From: Rhodospirillaceae bacterium
GTDB lineage: Bacteria; Pseudomonadota; Alphaproteobacteria; Rhodospirillales; Rhodospirillaceae
Reading direction: 5' to 3'
NCBI GenBank assembly: GCA_009693785.1
Contig: SHWP01000009.1
Coordinates: 1 to 64,000, forward strand
DNA: 64,000 nt
Shown: piece by piece, positions 14,871 through 28,537 of the stretch
Numbering within the stretch: position 1 is the first letter of the stretch
How the letters are laid out: the number at the start of each line of letters is the position of its first letter
Translations under genes and position numbers: made by a program
Notes under the pieces: model-generated
Told to the model about the DNA's origin: nothing
The model's input: the letters and a program-made list of their open reading frames with translations, nothing else
Database searches by the model: none

Positions 14871-15605
14871 ATGAATTCTACCAAGAACACCGCTCACCAA
14901 ACCATCACAGGCCGTATCGCTTATCTGAGCGACCGGTCGGCCGATTCGGGCCGGGAGCGGGGCTGGGAAAATTTCAGCATTTCGGTCTTTGCCGACCGGT
15001 CCATGACACTGCGCGCCTGTAGTATGATCGCTGACACCCCGCATGTCGTGCGCGACGTAACCCAGACGGTCGACGCCGCGATGAATCCGCAAGACTGCTT
15101 TGTTCGTGTGCGCACGGGCGGCGCGTTTACGGGCTCAGGCTGGTTTCGTTGGGGCGGCGGAACGGCAGAAGGCGAAGCCTTCACCGCAGCCGAAGGGCGT
15201 GTGCGTGAACACGATTCCTATGGGCCAGGGCCTGTGATTTTTTGCAACCACTCTATTGTTGGCGATGCATGGATGACAGCTGCTTACCCATTTGCGCAGG
15301 GCAAAGGCCTCGCGGCCATCTCTAATATGTACACAGCCTCGCGAAATAAACAGGGCGCCACGGGGCCATCACTCAACCGGCTTATCATGGGCCTGATGTG
15401 GCAAGGCACCGAGACCATCACAGTCAAAGCCGGGCAATTCGAGGTCAATAAATTCAAGCTCAACGGCATTGATCGTTCTGAAGATCTCTCGCCTGAAAAA
15501 CTGGCTTATGAGATTTGGGTTCTGACCGACGGTTCGCATGTCCCGGTTTTGTCCATGTACCGGGGCGAGCGGCGGTATGAGTTGGTGACTTATGCGCGTG
15601 ATTAA
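14871..15605 (+). CDS. Hypothetical protein (about 244 aa)
   Basis: ORF divergent from 13375-14790, 14-bp overlap with the next gene; no family recognised. Confidence 0.6.
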   Translation: MNSTKNTAHQTITGRIAYLSDRSADSGRERGWENFSISVFADRSMTLRACSMIADTPHVVRDVTQTVDAAMNPQDCFVRVRTGGAFTGSGWFRWGGGTAEGEAFTAAEGRVREHDSYGPGPVIFCNHSIVGDAWMTAAYPFAQGKGLAAISNMYTASRNKQGATGPSLNRLIMGLMWQGTETITVKAGQFEVNKFKLNGIDRSEDLSPEKLAYEIWVLTDGSHVPVLSMYRGERRYELVTYARD

Positions 15606-17088
15606 AAAATTCCTGATCTTCGGTCTTGCGCTTTTGGCGGGACATTCTGCCGCTGCGGAAAAAATATTGCGTATCGGTGTGACCTCGCTACCGGGCGATC
15701 TCGGCGGGCCCTACGGAAACATTGTCATTCCCTCGCTGTTGCCATCGCTAGCAATTTACGACCCGATCGTGAAGTTCGATGCTACTGGCACTGTGGTGCC
15801 AGCATTGGCTGAATCATGGCAGATGATTACGCCGACAACTTGGCGCTTTAAATTACGCGCAGGTGTTGCGTTCTCCAACGGTGAGAAACTAGATGCGGCG
15901 GCTGTCGCGGCGGCAATTAATTACCTCGCCTCTGAGGCTGGATTATTGGAGGTGGTGGCTCAGTTGGTGGTCGACGTGAAAGAGGCCCGCGTTGTCGATG
16001 CCCTGACCTTGGATGTCGAGACCGAAGCGCCCAATGTTTTGCTCCCGCGCCGGCTTGCCGGTGTACGGATTCCTGCGCCGAACGCCTGGAAGGATCTTGG
16101 CCGTAAGGACTTTGGCCTCAAACCCGTGGGCACTGGGCCTTTTATGGTCGAAGACTGGGGCGCGGCCAAAGTTATTTTTCTGGCCAATCGCGCCTCTTGG
16201 CACGCACCGGTGATTGATCGCATTGAAATCTTGGAGGTCAACGACCTCAATGCACGCGTACTAGGTTTACGTACCGGCGCGCTTGATATTGCCTTCGATG
16301 TGGGCCCAGAGGACCGCTCCCTGATTGAATCGGCCGGTGGGCGCATCAATATCCGCAACACGGGCCGTATCCAAACCGTGGCATTTGTATCCAACAAGCC
16401 ATCGCCGGTGGCCGATGTGCGCGTGCGCCAGGCGTTGAATTATGCCGTTAACAAGCAGCGCATTATCGATGTGCTGCTGGGCGGCACTACAACACCGGCC
16501 ACTCAAGGTGCCGTAAAACAAGCCTTCGGGTTTGAGCCGTCTCTTGAGGCCTACCCCTACGACCCAGACCGCGCTCGAGCAATGCTGAAAGCGGCAGGCT
16601 ACGAACAAGGCTTCGACATGCTGCTGAACTTTCCGCCCGGCGTCATGGCTGCCGATGAGGCCTATTATCAACAGGTCGTCTCGGACCTGCGCGCAGTCGG
16701 TGTGCGGGTTACAATCGAGACGTCAACTTTTGTGCAACATATCACCCGAATCAGAACGGGGGGATGGCCGGGCCTGGGATTTGGCATGGACTTTAACAAC
16801 ATGCCGACGCTGGATGCCCTGTGGTCAATCCGCATTCATAGTTGTCTGTGGGCGGCCCCCTGGCATTGCCGCCCGGAATGGACCCCCCTCATTCGCGCTG
16901 CTGAAACGGCCACCTCGGTGGATGAACGCCTCGCCCTTACCCGGCAATTACTCAAGCTATACCATGACGAACCGACTGGGGTTTTCCTCTGGGAAATGCC
17001 TGGAATCGATGGAATTGGGCCGCGCGTGCGCAATTTCACCCCGGGGCTGGGGACTTTGAACTTCGATACAATGGACGTTGCCCCATAA
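15592..17088 (+). CDS. Periplasmic substrate-binding protein, SBP_bac_5 (peptide/opine ABC type)
   Basis: Signal peptide, AIYDPIVKFDATGTVVPALAESWQM, WRFKLRAGVAFSNGEKLDAAAV, VRQALNYAVNKQRIIDVLLGG. Confidence 0.9.
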   Translation: MRVIKKFLIFGLALLAGHSAAAEKILRIGVTSLPGDLGGPYGNIVIPSLLPSLAIYDPIVKFDATGTVVPALAESWQMITPTTWRFKLRAGVAFSNGEKLDAAAVAAAINYLASEAGLLEVVAQLVVDVKEARVVDALTLDVETEAPNVLLPRRLAGVRIPAPNAWKDLGRKDFGLKPVGTGPFMVEDWGAAKVIFLANRASWHAPVIDRIEILEVNDLNARVLGLRTGALDIAFDVGPEDRSLIESAGGRINIRNTGRIQTVAFVSNKPSPVADVRVRQALNYAVNKQRIIDVLLGGTTTPATQGAVKQAFGFEPSLEAYPYDPDRARAMLKAAGYEQGFDMLLNFPPGVMAADEAYYQQVVSDLRAVGVRVTIETSTFVQHITRIRTGGWPGLGFGMDFNNMPTLDALWSIRIHSCLWAAPWHCRPEWTPLIRAAETATSVDERLALTRQLLKLYHDEPTGVFLWEMPGIDGIGPRVRNFTPGLGTLNFDTMDVAP

Positions 17089-20921: not shown

Positions 20922-22436
20922 ATGAAGCATAGCCACATGCCCCATATTCGCAATCAGATTACCGCCACGTTCTTCGCACTGATCACCCTGTGCGCAGCGC
21001 ATGCACATGCCGAGAAACACTTGCGCGTCACCACTTATAGTTTGCCGTTGGCGCAGGGCAACGTACACCGCTCGACCAGTTCGTCAGAGATTTACATTCA
21101 CACGGCCATGTTCGATCCGCTGACCATCGTGGACGAGAGCGCCAAGGTCTTGCCGTGGCTGGCCGAACGCTGGGAATCGCGCGACCCGCTGACCTGGCGG
21201 TTTTATCTGCGCAAGGGTGTGAGCTTTTCCAACGGCGAGAAGTTCACCGCCGACGCCGTGGCCACCAACCTGAATTATCTGATCTCGCCAGAGGGCAAGC
21301 GTGAATCTGTCTCGCGCACAGTCACCTCGATCGCGCGGGTGGATATCATCGACGACTATACGGTTGATATCGTCACTCATTTTCCCAACATCATGCTGCC
21401 GGGCGAAATCGCCATGGCACGTATGATGGCGCCGGGGCAGTGGCGGCGGTTAGGTATGGAGGGCTTTGCCAAAGAGCCTGTGGGCACTGGCCCCTTCAAG
21501 GTCGACCGCTGGGATGCCGCGCGCATCGAGCTCTCGGCCTTCACCGGTTCCTGGATCAGGCCCAAGTCCGACAAACTGACGTTCCTCAAGTTGCCCGATG
21601 CGGTCTCACGCACCCAGGCTATCCTGTCAAACAATGCCGATATCGCCATCGTCATCGGGCCCGAGGACGTTGCTGTGCTGGAAGCCGCGGGTCACACGCA
21701 CCATATCAGCCGCGGCACTGGAACCATGGGGCTGGCCTTTCTGAAAGACAAAGGCGGACCAATAGCGGATAAACGCGTACGCCTTGCGCTCAATTACGCC
21801 GTCAATAAAGAGCGCTATATCGCTGCGTTGTTGAACAACGCCGTCTTGCCTGCCAGCCAAGCCACACCGTCGTATGCCATCGCCTTTGACCCGTCCTTGA
21901 AACCGTTCGAATACGACCCCGCCAAGGCACGCGCCCTACTCAAGGAGGCCGGTTACGAAAAAGGCTTTACGTTGGTGGCCGAGGCGATTTTGGGCGGCAG
22001 TGCCGCCGATACAGCAATTTTTCAATACATCGCCCAAGACTTGGCCGCCGTGGGTGTGACGTTGGAAATGCGCAGCATTCCCAACAGTGAGATGATTAAG
22101 AAGGTCAATTTCGGCGGCTGGGCAGGCCAGGCCTACAACATCGACTTCAATGTCAAACCCAGTTTGGATGCCTATCGCACCCTCGACGTCTGCCTGACCC
22201 GGGGCGGCTATTATTGCGATGAGGATTTAATGCCAATCATCCGCGCGGCGCGGGTGGAGTTCGACATGAACAAGCGCGTGGTCCTGGTGCGCCAGTTGCT
22301 CAAGCGCCTGCGCGATGATCCGCCGACGCTCTATATGCATGAAACCGTCATGTTCGACGGGCTGCACAAGCGGGTGTCGGGCTATAAACCCATGAACCTA
22401 ATCATTAACTATCATCAGATTGACGTGACCGAATAA
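20922..22436 (+). CDS. Periplasmic substrate-binding protein, SBP_bac_5 (paralog of 15592-17088)
   Basis: Signal peptide, MFDPLTIVDESAKVLPWLAERWESRDPLTWRFYLRKGVSFSNGEKFTADAV, VRLALNYAVNKERYIAALLN. Confidence 0.9.
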   Translation: MKHSHMPHIRNQITATFFALITLCAAHAHAEKHLRVTTYSLPLAQGNVHRSTSSSEIYIHTAMFDPLTIVDESAKVLPWLAERWESRDPLTWRFYLRKGVSFSNGEKFTADAVATNLNYLISPEGKRESVSRTVTSIARVDIIDDYTVDIVTHFPNIMLPGEIAMARMMAPGQWRRLGMEGFAKEPVGTGPFKVDRWDAARIELSAFTGSWIRPKSDKLTFLKLPDAVSRTQAILSNNADIAIVIGPEDVAVLEAAGHTHHISRGTGTMGLAFLKDKGGPIADKRVRLALNYAVNKERYIAALLNNAVLPASQATPSYAIAFDPSLKPFEYDPAKARALLKEAGYEKGFTLVAEAILGGSAADTAIFQYIAQDLAAVGVTLEMRSIPNSEMIKKVNFGGWAGQAYNIDFNVKPSLDAYRTLDVCLTRGGYYCDEDLMPIIRAARVEFDMNKRVVLVRQLLKRLRDDPPTLYMHETVMFDGLHKRVSGYKPMNLIINYHQIDVTE

Positions 22437-22658: not shown

Positions 22659-23683
22659 ATGAGTACAAAAAAGTTCGATAAAGACCGGCGCGGCGATATC
22701 GACATTTATCTCGGGGAGCCGAACGAGCAAGTGCGCGAAAGCATGCGCGCCATGCTGCGTGGCGAGGGCTTCCGCGCACCCGCACCTTCGCGCGCATGGA
22801 AGACCTCCTCAGCGCGTTTGCTCAGAATTCCCCTGACCTGTTGATCCTCGCCGATGACATGCACGCCTCGACCTTCCAGTTGGTGAAGGACGTCCGTCAG
22901 TTCAAGATGGGGCGTAACCCCTTCATCCTGATCACGATGATGGTTGGTTCTGAAAACGACACCAACATCAAGAAGGCCATTTTGGCTGGCTCCGACGACG
23001 TGCTGGTTAAGCCCGTCTCGCCGGGCAAGATGCTCGACCGTATCGTCCACTTCACCTTCAACCGCTCCCCCTACATTGTCACCACCGATTACCTGGGGCC
23101 CGAGCGGCGGCGCAGCACCGATGACCGGCCCTCGAAGATCCGCCAGCTGCTGGTGGTCAATACCTTACGCGACAAGGCCGAGGGCAGGCGTGTGTCCGCC
23201 TCCGAGCTAAACCGCCAGGTCGAGCGCTGCATGACCGACGTGATGGCCTCGCGCCTCGACAGCCATGGCCTCAAGCTGGGGTATATCTGCAACCTCATCC
23301 TCAAGGCCTACGAAGAAAAGAAAATAGATAAGGCGGTTCACGACAACTTGCTGGTGCTGGTGCAAGTGCTGGAAGACGCCGGCCGCACGGCAAAAATCTT
23401 GGGCGAGCCCGATCTGGCCGACATTTGCGTCGACTTGGCGCGTCAAGTCGAAGAACTGGCCGAGGCCTACGAGAACCCGCCCAGCAGCGGCCTGGCGATC
23501 TTGCGCAAACTCACCCGCGCCTTCGACTTAGCCAAACAATCCACCGAAAAGCGTTTCTCACAAAACGCGGTCAAGCCCGATCAAGCTAAGGCCGCTGCAC
23601 CGCCACCACCGCCCGCGCCGGTCGATAGCGCGGCCAAAGGTGGTGACATCACCATCAGCGCCGAAGATTTGCTCAAGGGTTAG
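22659..23683 (+). pseudogene. Receiver-domain-like protein with unrecognised C-terminal domain, interrupted by an apparent 1-nt frameshift near 22770-22785
   Basis: Frame A gives DIDIYLGEPNEQVRESMRAMLRGEGFR; frame B resumes TRTFARMEDLLSAFAQNSPDLLILADD; together they align with the intact paralog 23898-24827. Confidence 0.75.
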
Positions 23684-23777
23684 CGGCACATCAGACGCAC
23701 GTATGCCTGGTTGAGTACGCCATTCTACAATCCATAGCGCCAAGCGCCTAAACCTAAGGTAAACCGCCATCTTTTTG

Positions 23778-23810
23778 GGCACGGCCAACACCAAATATAT
23801 GTTGGCTGTG
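23778..23810. repeat. Hairpin-forming inverted repeat between the receiver-like paralogs
   Basis: GCACGGCCAACA-ccaaatata-TGTTGGCTGTGC, 12-bp arms with one mismatch (G-U capable). Confidence 0.6.
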
Positions 23811-23897
23811 CTTGCATCCCTACAACTAATCCGAGATGATTAGGCGCTGTTTGGAACGTCCTGAGCTTCACACCGCAGAATAGAATCGTACGCCGTC

Positions 23898-24827
23898 ATG
23901 CCGCGCCTCGATAAAGAGATGATGCGCAAAATCACCGTCTATATCGGTGAGAAGAACTATTACGAGCGCAATCAGCTGCGCGACATGTTCAAGGCCCAGG
24001 GCGCGACCCAAATCGTCTGCCACGCCAACCTCCATGGCCTCAAAGAGGTCATGACGCAGGTGCCGCCAGATCTGTTGCTCATCGCCGATGATTTCGACAC
24101 CGATGTGTTTAGCGCCATCAAGGAAATCCGTGGCCAGAAGCTGGGCGACAACCCCTTCATGCTGATCGCCATGCTGGTCGACGCCAACCGCCCACAGTCC
24201 CTGAAACAAGCCATTGGCACCGGGGTCGATGACATCATCGTCAAACCCCTCACGCCCGACCGCATTCAGGACCGGCTGAGACTGGTCACCTTCCACCACC
24301 AGCCCTTCATCGTTACCGACGATTATATGGGGCCACAGCGCAAGAACATGGAATTGACAGGCCGCGTGCGGCGCATCGCGGTACTGAACACTATGCTCGA
24401 GAAGGTCAACGGCCGTGAGTTCGACAAGACGACGTTGAAGCAAGCCGTCGATGGTTCATTGCAACAAGTTCTGCAAGCCAAGCTCGACCGCAAAAGCTTC
24501 CGCCTGGGCGAGGTGTGCGAACGCTTGGTGAATGCCTTCGACACGGGTAATATTAACGAAGAAGTCCAACACGACATGATCATGCTGGCCGACGTGCTGG
24601 GCGAGGCCTCGCAACTGGCGGGCAAATTGCGCGATCCATCGCTGTCGGGGTTGTGCGAACAGTTATCGGAAAATGTGCGCGGCATCGCTGATCATTACGA
24701 TGATGTCTCCTCCAGCGAAATTGACCTGATTCGCAAGGTCACATCGGCCTTCAAGATGGCCATGAACGCTGGGCCCGCCGCCGAGGAATCCCAACCCGAT
24801 GCAGTCGATCTTTCGAAGCTCAGCTAG
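23898..24827 (+). CDS. Receiver-domain-like protein with unrecognised helical C-terminal domain
   Basis: KITVYIGEKNYYERNQLRDMFKAQGATQ, PPDLLLIADDFDTDVFSAIKEIR, GVDDIIVKPLTPDRIQDRL follow the receiver fold; remainder not assigned. Confidence 0.75.
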   Translation: MPRLDKEMMRKITVYIGEKNYYERNQLRDMFKAQGATQIVCHANLHGLKEVMTQVPPDLLLIADDFDTDVFSAIKEIRGQKLGDNPFMLIAMLVDANRPQSLKQAIGTGVDDIIVKPLTPDRIQDRLRLVTFHHQPFIVTDDYMGPQRKNMELTGRVRRIAVLNTMLEKVNGREFDKTTLKQAVDGSLQQVLQAKLDRKSFRLGEVCERLVNAFDTGNINEEVQHDMIMLADVLGEASQLAGKLRDPSLSGLCEQLSENVRGIADHYDDVSSSEIDLIRKVTSAFKMAMNAGPAAEESQPDAVDLSKLS

Positions 24828-24845: not shown

Positions 24846-25871
24846 ATGACACTATCTCGCCGGGTTGTCTTGAGTGCCGGAGCGTCTGCATTGGCGGGCT
24901 CGAGCGTTTTGGCCGCGCCAGGCCAAACCCGTTTGCGCTTTGGCGCCTACTTGGCGCCTGCCAGCAATACCATCAAGTCCATCGTCGGCCCGTGGATCAA
25001 AGAGGTCGAGGCCGCTGCCGCAGGGCAGTTGGGCTTTGACCTTTATACCGGCGGATCTTTGGGGCGCAGCCCGTATGCCGCCTTCGACCTGCTGCGAGCG
25101 GGCGTGTCGGATATCGCCTTTGCACAACCCAACTACACCCCCGGCCAGTTCAAGCAGCTGCAAGTGCTGGAAGTTCCATTTCTGACGCGCAGCTCCGTCG
25201 AAGCCTCGGTGGTCGCCTGGACATTGTATGAGCGAGGCCTCGTGAAAGGGTTCGATGACGTACATGTGCTAGGCCTATGGACGGCAGAACCGGGATACCT
25301 GTTCATGCGCTTGCCCGTACGTAATTTCGACGATCTCAAGAATCTCAAAATCCGCACGGGGGGGCGCCTCGAAGGCGAATTTATCGAACGGCTGGGCGCC
25401 ACACCCGAGGCCATGTTCACCGCCGAGGTCTACGAGGCGCTTCGCCGCCACACAATTGATGGCGCGGTACAGGGCATCGTCTCGGCCCATACATTCCAAT
25501 CTTATCGGGCTGTCTCGCACGTCCTCAAGGCCCCCTTTGGTGTGATGTCGTTTGCCCTGTTGATGAACAAGCGCGCATGGGAACGCCTGCCACCAGAGTT
25601 GCAGGAAATCCTGACCGGCAAGGGCGGCCTGCACTTGGCGCTTTCGGGCGGTACGGCCTATGACAAATACGCGCGGGAAATAGACGCAAAATTTCACGCC
25701 ATCGGGACCATGACCTACGTCGAGCCGTCGCCCGAGGATATCGAACAATTGGAAGTGGCGGTGAAACCCCTGGTGGATGCGTGGATCGAGCGCACTGAGA
25801 ATGGGGCCGAAACCTATGCGGCGGCTAAAGACATTCTGGCGCAACTGCGCAGCCGCGAACGGGCGAGTTGA
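24846..25871 (+). CDS. dctP: TRAP transporter substrate-binding subunit DctP
   Basis: Signal peptide; YTGGSLGRSPYAAFDLLRAGVSDIAF, LKIRTGGRLEGEFIERLGATPEAM. Confidence 0.9.
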   Translation: MTLSRRVVLSAGASALAGSSVLAAPGQTRLRFGAYLAPASNTIKSIVGPWIKEVEAAAAGQLGFDLYTGGSLGRSPYAAFDLLRAGVSDIAFAQPNYTPGQFKQLQVLEVPFLTRSSVEASVVAWTLYERGLVKGFDDVHVLGLWTAEPGYLFMRLPVRNFDDLKNLKIRTGGRLEGEFIERLGATPEAMFTAEVYEALRRHTIDGAVQGIVSAHTFQSYRAVSHVLKAPFGVMSFALLMNKRAWERLPPELQEILTGKGGLHLALSGGTAYDKYAREIDAKFHAIGTMTYVEPSPEDIEQLEVAVKPLVDAWIERTENGAETYAAAKDILAQLRSRERAS

Positions 25872-26416
25872 TCATGCGTGAATCCAACACGCCCTCGCCG
25901 ATCGAATCGATCATCAACCGCGCTGTTGATTCCATCGCCACGCTTGGCTTTCTATGCCTCGTTTTTATCGCCTTCCTGACCATGATCGACGTGGTCCTGC
26001 GCTATCTCAATCTTGCCCGGTTTGATGGCCTGAAAGACTTGACGGAGGTCGCCTTTGCCGTGGTGATCGCATCGTGTTTTCCGGCGGGCTTGAAAAAAGG
26101 CAATGCCGTGACGGTGCATCTGCTTGGCAAGGCCTTGGGCAATCGTTGGCATGCCTGGTTCGACGTCATCGGCGCGGGGGTCATGTTGGGTCTGTTCGCC
26201 TTGCTTGCGTGGCAATTCACCGCGCTGACATTGCTGTACCAAGAAGCGGGCCGAACCACGTCGACATTGGAATGGCCCACCGCCCCCGTGTGGTGGATCG
26301 TCTCGGCACTCATGATGGCCTGTGTTGTCGTGCAACTTTGGGTCGCAGGCGCTGCGCTGCGGGCCGCGTTCAAGGGCATTCCGCGCCCGAGCCACGGCGA
26401 AAGCATCATGGAATAG
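25868..26416 (+). CDS. dctQ: TRAP transporter small permease DctQ
   Basis: FLTMIDVVLRYLNLARFDGLKDLTEVAFAVVIA; ATGA-type overlap with dctP. Confidence 0.88.
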   Translation: MIMRESNTPSPIESIINRAVDSIATLGFLCLVFIAFLTMIDVVLRYLNLARFDGLKDLTEVAFAVVIASCFPAGLKKGNAVTVHLLGKALGNRWHAWFDVIGAGVMLGLFALLAWQFTALTLLYQEAGRTTSTLEWPTAPVWWIVSALMMACVVVQLWVAGAALRAAFKGIPRPSHGESIME

Positions 26417-26426
26417 GCCGCGCCAC

Positions 26427-27749
26427 GTGGATGTAACCCTCGTTGATCCGGCCGTGATCGGTTCTCTGGCCCTTGTCGCCGTGCTGGGCATGATCGCGCT
26501 GCATGTTCCCATCGGTGCGGCCATGGCCCTTGGCGGTTTCATCGGCACTGGATTGATCATCGGTTTTGGCCCGGCGGTGGCAATTCTGGGTATTGACCCC
26601 TCGCAACAAATCGCCAGCCCCGAGTTGGCAGTGATCGCCTTGTTCTTGTTGATGGGCAACTTCGCAGGTGCGGCGGGCCTATCGGCGGATCTTTACCGCC
26701 TCGCGCAAGCCTTCATCGGTCATCGGCGCGGCGGATTGGCCATGGCCACGGTGGCCTCGTGCGCGGGGTTCGGCGCAGTGTGCGGCTCGTCGTTGGCCAC
26801 GGTGGCCACCATGGCGCGCATCGCCCTGCCCGAAATGAAACAGCGCGGCTATGCGGATTCGCTCTCCACCGGTTCGATTGCCTCAGGCGCGACACTGGGC
26901 ATCATCGTGCCGCCCTCGGTGATCATGGTGCTCTACGCCATCCTGACCGAGCAATTCATCACCGCCTTGTTTGTGGCTGCCGTCGTACCCGCCATCATCG
27001 CCACTGTGGGTTACTTGATTGCCGTGCGCGCATCTGTCGCGCTCAACCCCGAGGCCGGACCAGCGGGCCCGCGCGCACCGTGGCCGGAACGCTGGAAAGC
27101 CGTGAAAGAAAGTTGGGGCGTGCTCTTGCTCGCGGTGTTGGTCTCGGGTGGTATTTATTCAGGTATCTTCACCGTCAATGAAGCCGCCTCCGTGGGGGCG
27201 GCCTTGGCAATTATTTTCGCCTGGGCACGCGGACGGTTAAACCGCACATCATTCTTCAAGAGTTTGAAAGAAACTGCCGCCTCCACCGCGCTGATTTACC
27301 TGATCATCATTGGCGCTAATATTTTCGGCTACTGCATTTCACTCTCGCACATCCCCGATATCATCATCACCGCCATCGAGGCACTGCCGATCCCCGACCT
27401 CATGATCATTTACCTGATACTGGCCATGTATATCGTGCTGGGCGCGATCTTCGATGAAGTCGCCGCCATGGTGATTACTCTGCCCTTCGTGTTCCCCGTG
27501 ATTACGGCGATGGGTTACGACCCGGTGTGGTGGGGCATCATCAACGTGGTGGTGATCGAAATTGGCATGATCATGCCGCCCATCGGGATCAATGTGTTTG
27601 TGATGCAGGGCATGGCGCCCGGCACCAGCTTGCGCACGATTTACACCGGCGTGATGCCCTTCGTGGTGGCCGATATCATCCGGCTGATTATTCTCGTGGC
27701 GCTGCCAGCCCTAACATTATGGCTGCCGAAGCTGGTGGGGCTGATGTGA
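26427..27749 (+). CDS. dctM: TRAP transporter large permease DctM
   Basis: HVPIGAAMALGGFIGTG, CGSSLATVATMARIALPEMKQRGYADSLSTGSIASGATLGIIVPPSVIMVLYAILTEQ; in-frame GTG at 26427 is the likely start. Confidence 0.9.
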   Translation: MDVTLVDPAVIGSLALVAVLGMIALHVPIGAAMALGGFIGTGLIIGFGPAVAILGIDPSQQIASPELAVIALFLLMGNFAGAAGLSADLYRLAQAFIGHRRGGLAMATVASCAGFGAVCGSSLATVATMARIALPEMKQRGYADSLSTGSIASGATLGIIVPPSVIMVLYAILTEQFITALFVAAVVPAIIATVGYLIAVRASVALNPEAGPAGPRAPWPERWKAVKESWGVLLLAVLVSGGIYSGIFTVNEAASVGAALAIIFAWARGRLNRTSFFKSLKETAASTALIYLIIIGANIFGYCISLSHIPDIIITAIEALPIPDLMIIYLILAMYIVLGAIFDEVAAMVITLPFVFPVITAMGYDPVWWGIINVVVIEIGMIMPPIGINVFVMQGMAPGTSLRTIYTGVMPFVVADIIRLIILVALPALTLWLPKLVGLM

Positions 27750-27754
27750 CGCTT

Positions 27755-27857
27755 AGAGCGAGCCGCGTAAATTCAGAATCGAACGGCTCGCTCTATCTAT
27801 TTGTTGGCGCATCGTTTTTTGCCGAAAACCGGAAGCCCACTTTTCGGCACGATGCGC
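27755..27857. repeat. Composite palindromic repeat element (two adjacent inverted repeats)
   Basis: AGAGCGAGCCG (27755-27765)/CGGCTCGCTCT (27784-27794), then GCGCATCG...CGATGCGC (27807-27814/27850-27857) nesting TGCCGAAAA (27820-27828)/TTTTCGGCA (27841-27849). Confidence 0.8.
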
Positions 27858-28243
27858 TAGCCAAAAAGCCGGGCGGCAACAAACGCGAAGAAGAACCCCA
27901 CGGCATAGATGCCAAGCGAGCTGTAGAACGTAACTGTTCCGAATAACCTCAGGCGCTGGCACGCGAGCGCCAGCTTGGGGTCTGCCGGGCACGGCGTACC
28001 CCGATTCACATAACGCGCGACGCCAACCAGCGCCAACATCGCCCCGGCCACGCCAAAGACGATACCCTTGTGCTCGGACAATACAATAAGCTGCGGCACC
28101 GCGCTAACCAGCCCCGCCAAAGCCGCACCCGCGCCTATCGACACCAGCAAGGCTGGCAACGCGCAGCACACCAAGCATCCGCCCGAAAAGAACAGACTCA
28201 ACGTCGACGCGGCGATCTCGCGCGTGGCGATCCGATCGATCAT
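27857..28243 (-). CDS. MerT/MerC-like membrane protein
   Basis: Hydrophobic multi-TM, SGGCLVCCALPALLVSIGAGAALAGL; followed by a cysteine pair GTPCPADPKLALACQ. Confidence 0.65.
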   Translation of the reverse strand: MIDRIATREIAASTLSLFFSGGCLVCCALPALLVSIGAGAALAGLVSAVPQLIVLSEHKGIVFGVAGAMLALVGVARYVNRGTPCPADPKLALACQRLRLFGTVTFYSSLGIYAVGFFFAFVAARLFG

Positions 28244-28252
28244 AGGGTTCGC

Positions 28253-28537
28253 TTAAGGCTGGCGGTCGATACCGACCACCGCGTACCCGGCATCGGTGAT
28301 CAACTTGGTCACGGTGTCATCGGCCAGCGTGACCTCGGGCTTGGTATGAACCGTGACCTTCCGGCCTTCGAGGTCGACCTTGATGTCGGCCACGGCAGCT
28401 TGCTTCTTGAAGGATTTTTCGATGCCGGTGGCGCAAAACGCACAAACCATGCCGTTAACCGTGGCAACGATGGTTTCGGCCTGCGCCGTTGGCGCGGCCA
28501 GCATGGCAAGAATGAGGAAGTAACGTGTGTGTCGCAT
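28253..28537 (-). CDS. Periplasmic heavy-metal-associated (MerP/HMA-like) protein
   Basis: Signal peptide; VNGMVCAFCATGIEKSFKKQAAVADIKVDLEGRKVTV. Confidence 0.85.
   Translation of the reverse strand: MRHTRYFLILAMLAAPTAQAETIVATVNGMVCAFCATGIEKSFKKQAAVADIKVDLEGRKVTVHTKPEVTLADDTVTKLITDAGYAVVGIDRQP

Follow-up and report, generated by a model that had tools for sequence, protein, structure and literature searches.

Within the window, a stretch of 64,000 nt from a contig of a Rhodospirillaceae bacterium, two paralogous genes lie in tandem on the forward strand (in the following called A and B; 33% identity between their products, E 1.6e-51). Based on the list of open reading frames and on comparison with orthologues, gene A (22659..23683) encodes a receiver-like domain, a single GPxRR motif and a predicted helical domain. 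The motif, YLGPERR, is encoded at 23090..23110 and the helical domain at 23126..23533 (from the model and the coordinates of profile matches); a His codon at 23264-23266 falls, according to the alignment, in the first long helix of this domain. Gene B (23898..24824) is an intact coding sequence of 309 amino acids. It comprises an aspartate-less receiver fold at residues 11-131 (23928..24290; assigned from the AlphaFold model, Foldseek and the active-site residues), the motif YMGPQRK (24324..24344), which from the sequence and the alignment appears to be a weakened single unit, and the second predicted helical domain (24363..24761; model and profile match).

Both flanks of the pair are occupied by uptake genes on the same strand, which we place outside the module. 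Upstream lies a gene for a family-5 solute-binding protein (SBP5; 20922..22436), identified by a PF00496 match of its orthologue at locus L050. The TRAP transporter genes dctP-dctQ-dctM (24846..27749; PF03480 in DctP, E 3e-35) follow directly downstream. No histidine kinase adjoins the pair in the window. In these respects the first-pass annotation was accurate: it had put both genes at this place, just upstream of a TRAP operon and with no kinase beside them. It had, however, read through a frameshift in gene A without comment. The SBP5 gene also precedes the pair at L007, L012, L050, L055, L056, L096 and L103. A further family-5 solute-binding protein is encoded in the window at 15592-17088, with 39% identity to the one at 20922-22436. 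Beyond the TRAP genes, a MerP-like heavy-metal-associated (HMA) protein gene (28253-28537) and an adjoining small membrane-protein-like reading frame (27857-28243) are shared with L012.

The start of gene A is read in one frame from 22659 and its body in another (22796-23683, 295 amino acids), with the frameshift near 22.78 kb. Full-length, unbroken orthologues in relatives (L007:6769-7821, L008:627-1610 and L009:1268-2257) are open across this stretch. Outside the frameshift, A of the window is 76-77% identical to the L007 orthologue, a level matching that among intact orthologues (78% between L007 and L009). Gene A thus shows no visible decay, and the frameshift is more likely an assembly error or of very recent origin than a sign of long decay. 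The frameshift, a broken A/B remnant at L012 and the loss of the psp genes from the window genome could nevertheless be read as signs that the receivers are decaying here and no longer have a function. We consider this very unlikely, given the intact gene B, the undiminished identity of A outside the frameshift, the frequency of single-base errors in metagenome assemblies and the presence of intact orthologues in at least 20 genomes.

The N-terminal domains are receivers by fold. Taken singly, proteins A and B score 20-21 bits against PF00072, below the Pfam cut-off of 30.2, but 46 of 48 family members match this domain at E <=0.1, and a profile built from 12 sequences matched receivers in the PDB at E about 1e-7. 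The AlphaFold model of B, computed from an input alignment of modest depth (12 sequences), has a mean pLDDT of 74.9, and in Foldseek its receiver part matched 3lte with a target TM-score of 0.88 and an rmsd of 1.8. Model, structural match and profile agree on the (beta-alpha)5 fold of the PF00072 superfamily, which bears out the earlier description of the N-termini as receiver-like.

The residue that defines a canonical response regulator, the phosphoacceptor Asp at the end of beta-3, is missing. In an alignment of 84 relatives, from which all active-site and motif counts were taken, none of the 23 A proteins, the 19 B proteins or the 5 paralogues fused to a cNMP-binding domain has it; Ala, Ser, Gly or Thr takes its place. 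Half of the distant full-length relatives (14/28) and 8 of 9 short Cle-like proteins keep the Asp. The receivers of A and B retain one residue of the acidic pocket and the Lys. A pseudo-receiver has been defined as a receiver fold in which one of the five catalytic residues, in particular the Asp, is missing (PMC12632262), and by this definition A and B classify, from their sequences, as aspartate-less pseudo-receivers. Because the phosphoacceptor is missing in every sampled orthologue, the usual site is excluded as a place of phosphorylation and acetyl phosphate should not switch A or B through it, and we infer that both proteins would work independently of phosphorylation in the cell.

Directly after the receiver follows the motif YLGPERR in A and YMGPQRK in B. 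The first-pass annotation had noticed it as shared but did not recognise it; it corresponds, as judged by sequence, to one unit of the arginine-rich motif (ARR) of Cle proteins. In Caulobacter Cle proteins, a tandem [YF]xGP[DE][RK]R constitutes the arginine-rich motif that binds c-di-GMP (Nesper et al. 2017, PMC5677366). According to the family profile, short receivers of about 180-210 amino acids from outside the Rhodospirillales carry RPFxxTxxYFGPDRR, mostly followed by a second YxGPxRR. Two motif units, fitting the published definition of the Cle ARR (PMC5677366), are present in 7 of 9 such short relatives. One short relative, which has a single strict unit, is encoded in the window genome (G000:C42, locus L003). 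The flanking RPF[IV]xT and the GPxRR unit are common to the A/B family and these short tandem-motif receivers.

Two defining features of Cle proteins are nevertheless lacking from A and B. The tandem motif is reduced to one unit, found in all 23 A proteins and in every full-length member of the family. The helix-4 arginines are also replaced: the two positions hold Arg in 9/9 and 8/9 of the short relatives, whereas A and B have I/V/M and A/S/N there. These positions were set from the short relatives, and their correspondence to R113 of CleD is presumed. Overall, A and B appear to have arisen on the Cle side of the receiver family. They are possible c-di-GMP binders, but with neither a second ARR unit nor arginines in helix 4, binding is uncertain.

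The cNMP-fused paralogues, with a C-terminal PF00027 domain identified by Pfam, are found at L051:8105-9904, L052:7897-9531 and L062:8216-9868. An ABC-2 / ABC_transp_aux (Gld-like) transporter is encoded next to the gene at L051, and the neighbours at L052 look similar. Among the ARR proteins of a published survey, nine have additional domains, including cNMP-binding ones (PMC5677366), and the paralogues found here may be included in that set.

The region following the GPxRR motif, about 140 amino acids, is predicted by the AlphaFold models to form one short and four longer helices, with moderate model confidence (pLDDT 68). Searches against Pfam, NCBIfam, PHROGs and PDB sequences gave no consistent family, only scattered matches to single members or designed helices, and Foldseek returned only generic four-helix bundles at E of at least 0.06. 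This agrees with the original remark that the C-terminal region resembles no known output domain. A profile of this domain alone gave 97 matches, distributed over 42 of 61 relatives. Almost all lie in reading frames long enough to include a receiver too, and the shorter frames are broken copies or copies at a contig edge. By sequence, the region thus represents a putative helical domain family that is widespread in the Rhodospirillales and unnamed by Pfam.

One conserved position in this domain stands out. A His in the first long helix is present in 23/23 A and in 17/28 distant relatives, and the corresponding column holds Gln in 18/19 B and Lys in B of the window. Together with the H-x-x-K/R spacing and a weak Foldseek resemblance to the P1 domain of CheA (2ld6, 1tqg), the mid-helix His could mark a degenerate HPt-like bundle, in which A would be part of a one-protein phosphorelay and B its phospho-dead partner. 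We give this idea little credence: the CheA P1 match has an E of 0.78, on par with unrelated and designed four-helix bundles, a bulky Leu follows the H-x-x-K, the His is missing from B, and no member has a Pfam match to Hpt, although the true Hpt of a neighbouring CheA was detected at E 4e-16.

To place A and B within the family, we computed a quick maximum-likelihood tree with SH-aLRT support. It separated clades of the short Cle-like proteins (support 100), of B (99), of the cNMP-fused proteins (99) and of A, with good support for both A and B. The pair is conserved in six genera (g1, g2, g3, g8, g17 and g19), and the separate A and B clades place the A-B duplication before the divergence of these pair-bearing genera. 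A further tandem arrangement and distant copies were observed. At L077:2797-4767, distant members with the phosphoacceptor Asp form an independent tandem pair in another family of the same order. Distant members at L066, L074 and L078 repeatedly adjoin an ispD-like gene, and dusB-like and NtrB-like genes occur close by (all named from sequence only); no common partner was found in the neighbourhoods of the distant copies. A plasmid search yielded only Azospirillum proteins annotated as 'response regulator'. In the same genus as the window, the remnant at L012:7983-8781 (genome G002) joins the N-terminus of A to the C-terminus of B, as if by a deletion between the paralogues; this genome is without fliM and pspA, and its TRAP genes remain.

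Comparison of gene neighbourhoods showed that the most widespread setting of the pair is the phage shock protein (PSP) locus, pspF / pspABC-A-B, not the TRAP operon. In g3, g8 and g19, pspF faces pspA-pspB-pspC, followed by A and then B; the identities of PspF, PspA, PspB and PspC were checked by Pfam. In 11 genomes, A and the last psp gene share a strand and are no more than about 0.2-1.5 kb apart, and in 3 further genomes the psp genes lie on the same contig at 5-9 kb from A, a distance seen in g1 and g2. The order in g1, g2 and g17 is psp, other genes, rraA, SBP5, A, B and dctPQM. In the genus of the window, the pair is separated from psp; the window genome itself, an 86%-complete assembly, contains no pspA, and the pair is not part of a PSP locus there. 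In many PSP loci, a second small PspB-like gene was seen between pspC and A (L010:6455-6691, L045:7573-7809 and others).

Of 12 loci examined, 10 have a near-perfect sigma54 site upstream of pspA. No such site was found directly upstream of A or B, and no terminator between pspC and A at L010; sigma70 and terminator scans were not informative.

The first-pass annotation had proposed to look for co-occurrence with the TRAP genes. This link turned out to be confined to g1, g2 and g17, where the order SBP5-A-B-DctPQM is retained, as would be expected if A and B were dedicated regulators of the adjoining TRAP and solute-binding-protein uptake genes. In g3, g8 and g19, however, the pair occurs without TRAP, the TRAP genes are intact at L012 where A and B are reduced to a remnant, and neither protein contains a DNA-binding domain. 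Of the explanations considered here, this one is the most doubtful, and we rejected a common function with TRAP as the main reading. The suggestion of an undescribed signalling module is upheld for the conserved pair and its unnamed C-terminal domain, but the motif is known, the TRAP link is local and the receivers lack the phosphoacceptor.

The association with PSP extends to gene content. Among 37 genomes from the six genera, A and pspA occur together in 17 and A alone in 6, the window genome being one of these; pspA was never seen without A, and the other 14 lack both pspA and an intact A (Fisher p 6e-6). The counts were tallied by hand and are uncorrected for relatedness and linkage, and the p value overstates the case because clade-mates are not independent and linked genes can be lost jointly by one deletion. 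The corresponding comparison of FliM with A across the six genera gave a weaker correlation (18/5/5/9, p 0.015).

The latter comparison is relevant to another explanation, according to which A and B are Cle-like effectors that bind c-di-GMP via the GPxRR motif and act at the flagellar motor or in surface attachment, with the PSP neighbourhood being incidental. Receiver and GPxRR motif are shared with Cle-like proteins, GGDEF proteins occur in 59 of 61 relatives, and in two same-genus comparisons (G002 versus G000, G001, G003 and G004; G027 versus G005) the genome without fliM has lost or broken the pair. Yet the tandem motif and the helix-4 arginines are lacking, and across the six genera A correlates more weakly with FliM than with pspA. 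Moreover, G291 (99% complete) has the pair without fliM, five genomes have fliM without the pair, and full-length relatives are kept in fliM-negative genomes of other families (G041, G053, G055, G058 and G059). A primarily flagellar role is therefore unlikely, if less so than the alternatives discussed above.

Since the most widespread setting is a sigma54-controlled PSP locus, we suggest that A and B most likely act as a pair of adaptors that belongs with the PSP response to membrane stress, does not depend on phosphorylation and perhaps responds to c-di-GMP; we consider the chances of this reading about even. In such a scheme, A and B would descend from anciently duplicated aspartate-less receivers of Cle-like GPxRR origin in the Alphaproteobacteria, to which a new C-terminal domain of four helices was added. 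The receiver fold and the GPxRR stretch would provide a ligand- or protein-docking input that needs no phosphorylation, and the helical domain would serve as the oligomerisation and output part. As cytoplasmic adaptors, A and B would be co-produced with the PSP membrane-stress response and tune it through binding to proteins, possibly in step with c-di-GMP. The gene order and co-occurrence make a PSP function plausible; an interaction between A and B and the binding of c-di-GMP are further assumptions of this proposal.

A bolder version, which we regard as a long shot, is a new class of PSP regulators in which A and B pair via their helical domains and each contributes one GPxRR half-site to a c-di-GMP site completed in trans. 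If true, the second messenger of the motile/sessile decision would be linked to sigma54-controlled membrane-stress protection without phosphorylation. How pseudo-receivers switch is regarded as an unresolved question in the literature (PMC12632262), and PSP regulation outside the enterobacteria is poorly known. The A/B pair, two small soluble proteins, makes both accessible to testing. A full-text search of open-licence papers for PSP together with c-di-GMP and receiver domain found nothing, and the portion of the PSP survey PMC11237479 considered here names no receiver pair of the A/B kind among PSP partners.

Compared with known systems, A and B share with other bacterial pseudo-receivers (PMC12632262) the receiver fold without the phosphoacceptor Asp and without one of the two acidic residues, but differ in an output domain that has no name in Pfam or NCBIfam and in forming a conserved tandem pair. 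The REC1 pseudo-receiver of ShkA (PMC7010744) is likewise an aspartate-less receiver with a proposed or shown role as a docking domain for a small ligand, c-di-GMP; ShkA is a hybrid histidine kinase, whereas A and B stand alone without kinase domains. With Cle proteins (PMC5677366), they have in common a receiver followed directly by RPF..T..YxGP[DE][RK]R and phosphorylation residues that are dispensable or degenerate. In contrast to Cle, A and B have a single GPxRR unit where Cle has two, lack the helix-4 Arg and the phosphoacceptor Asp, carry an additional helical domain of about 140 amino acids, and are found in a PSP neighbourhood. The proteobacterial PSP system pspF/pspABC (PMC11237479) provides this setting in several genera, with the pair directly downstream of pspABC and behind the pspF/sigma54 promoter region.
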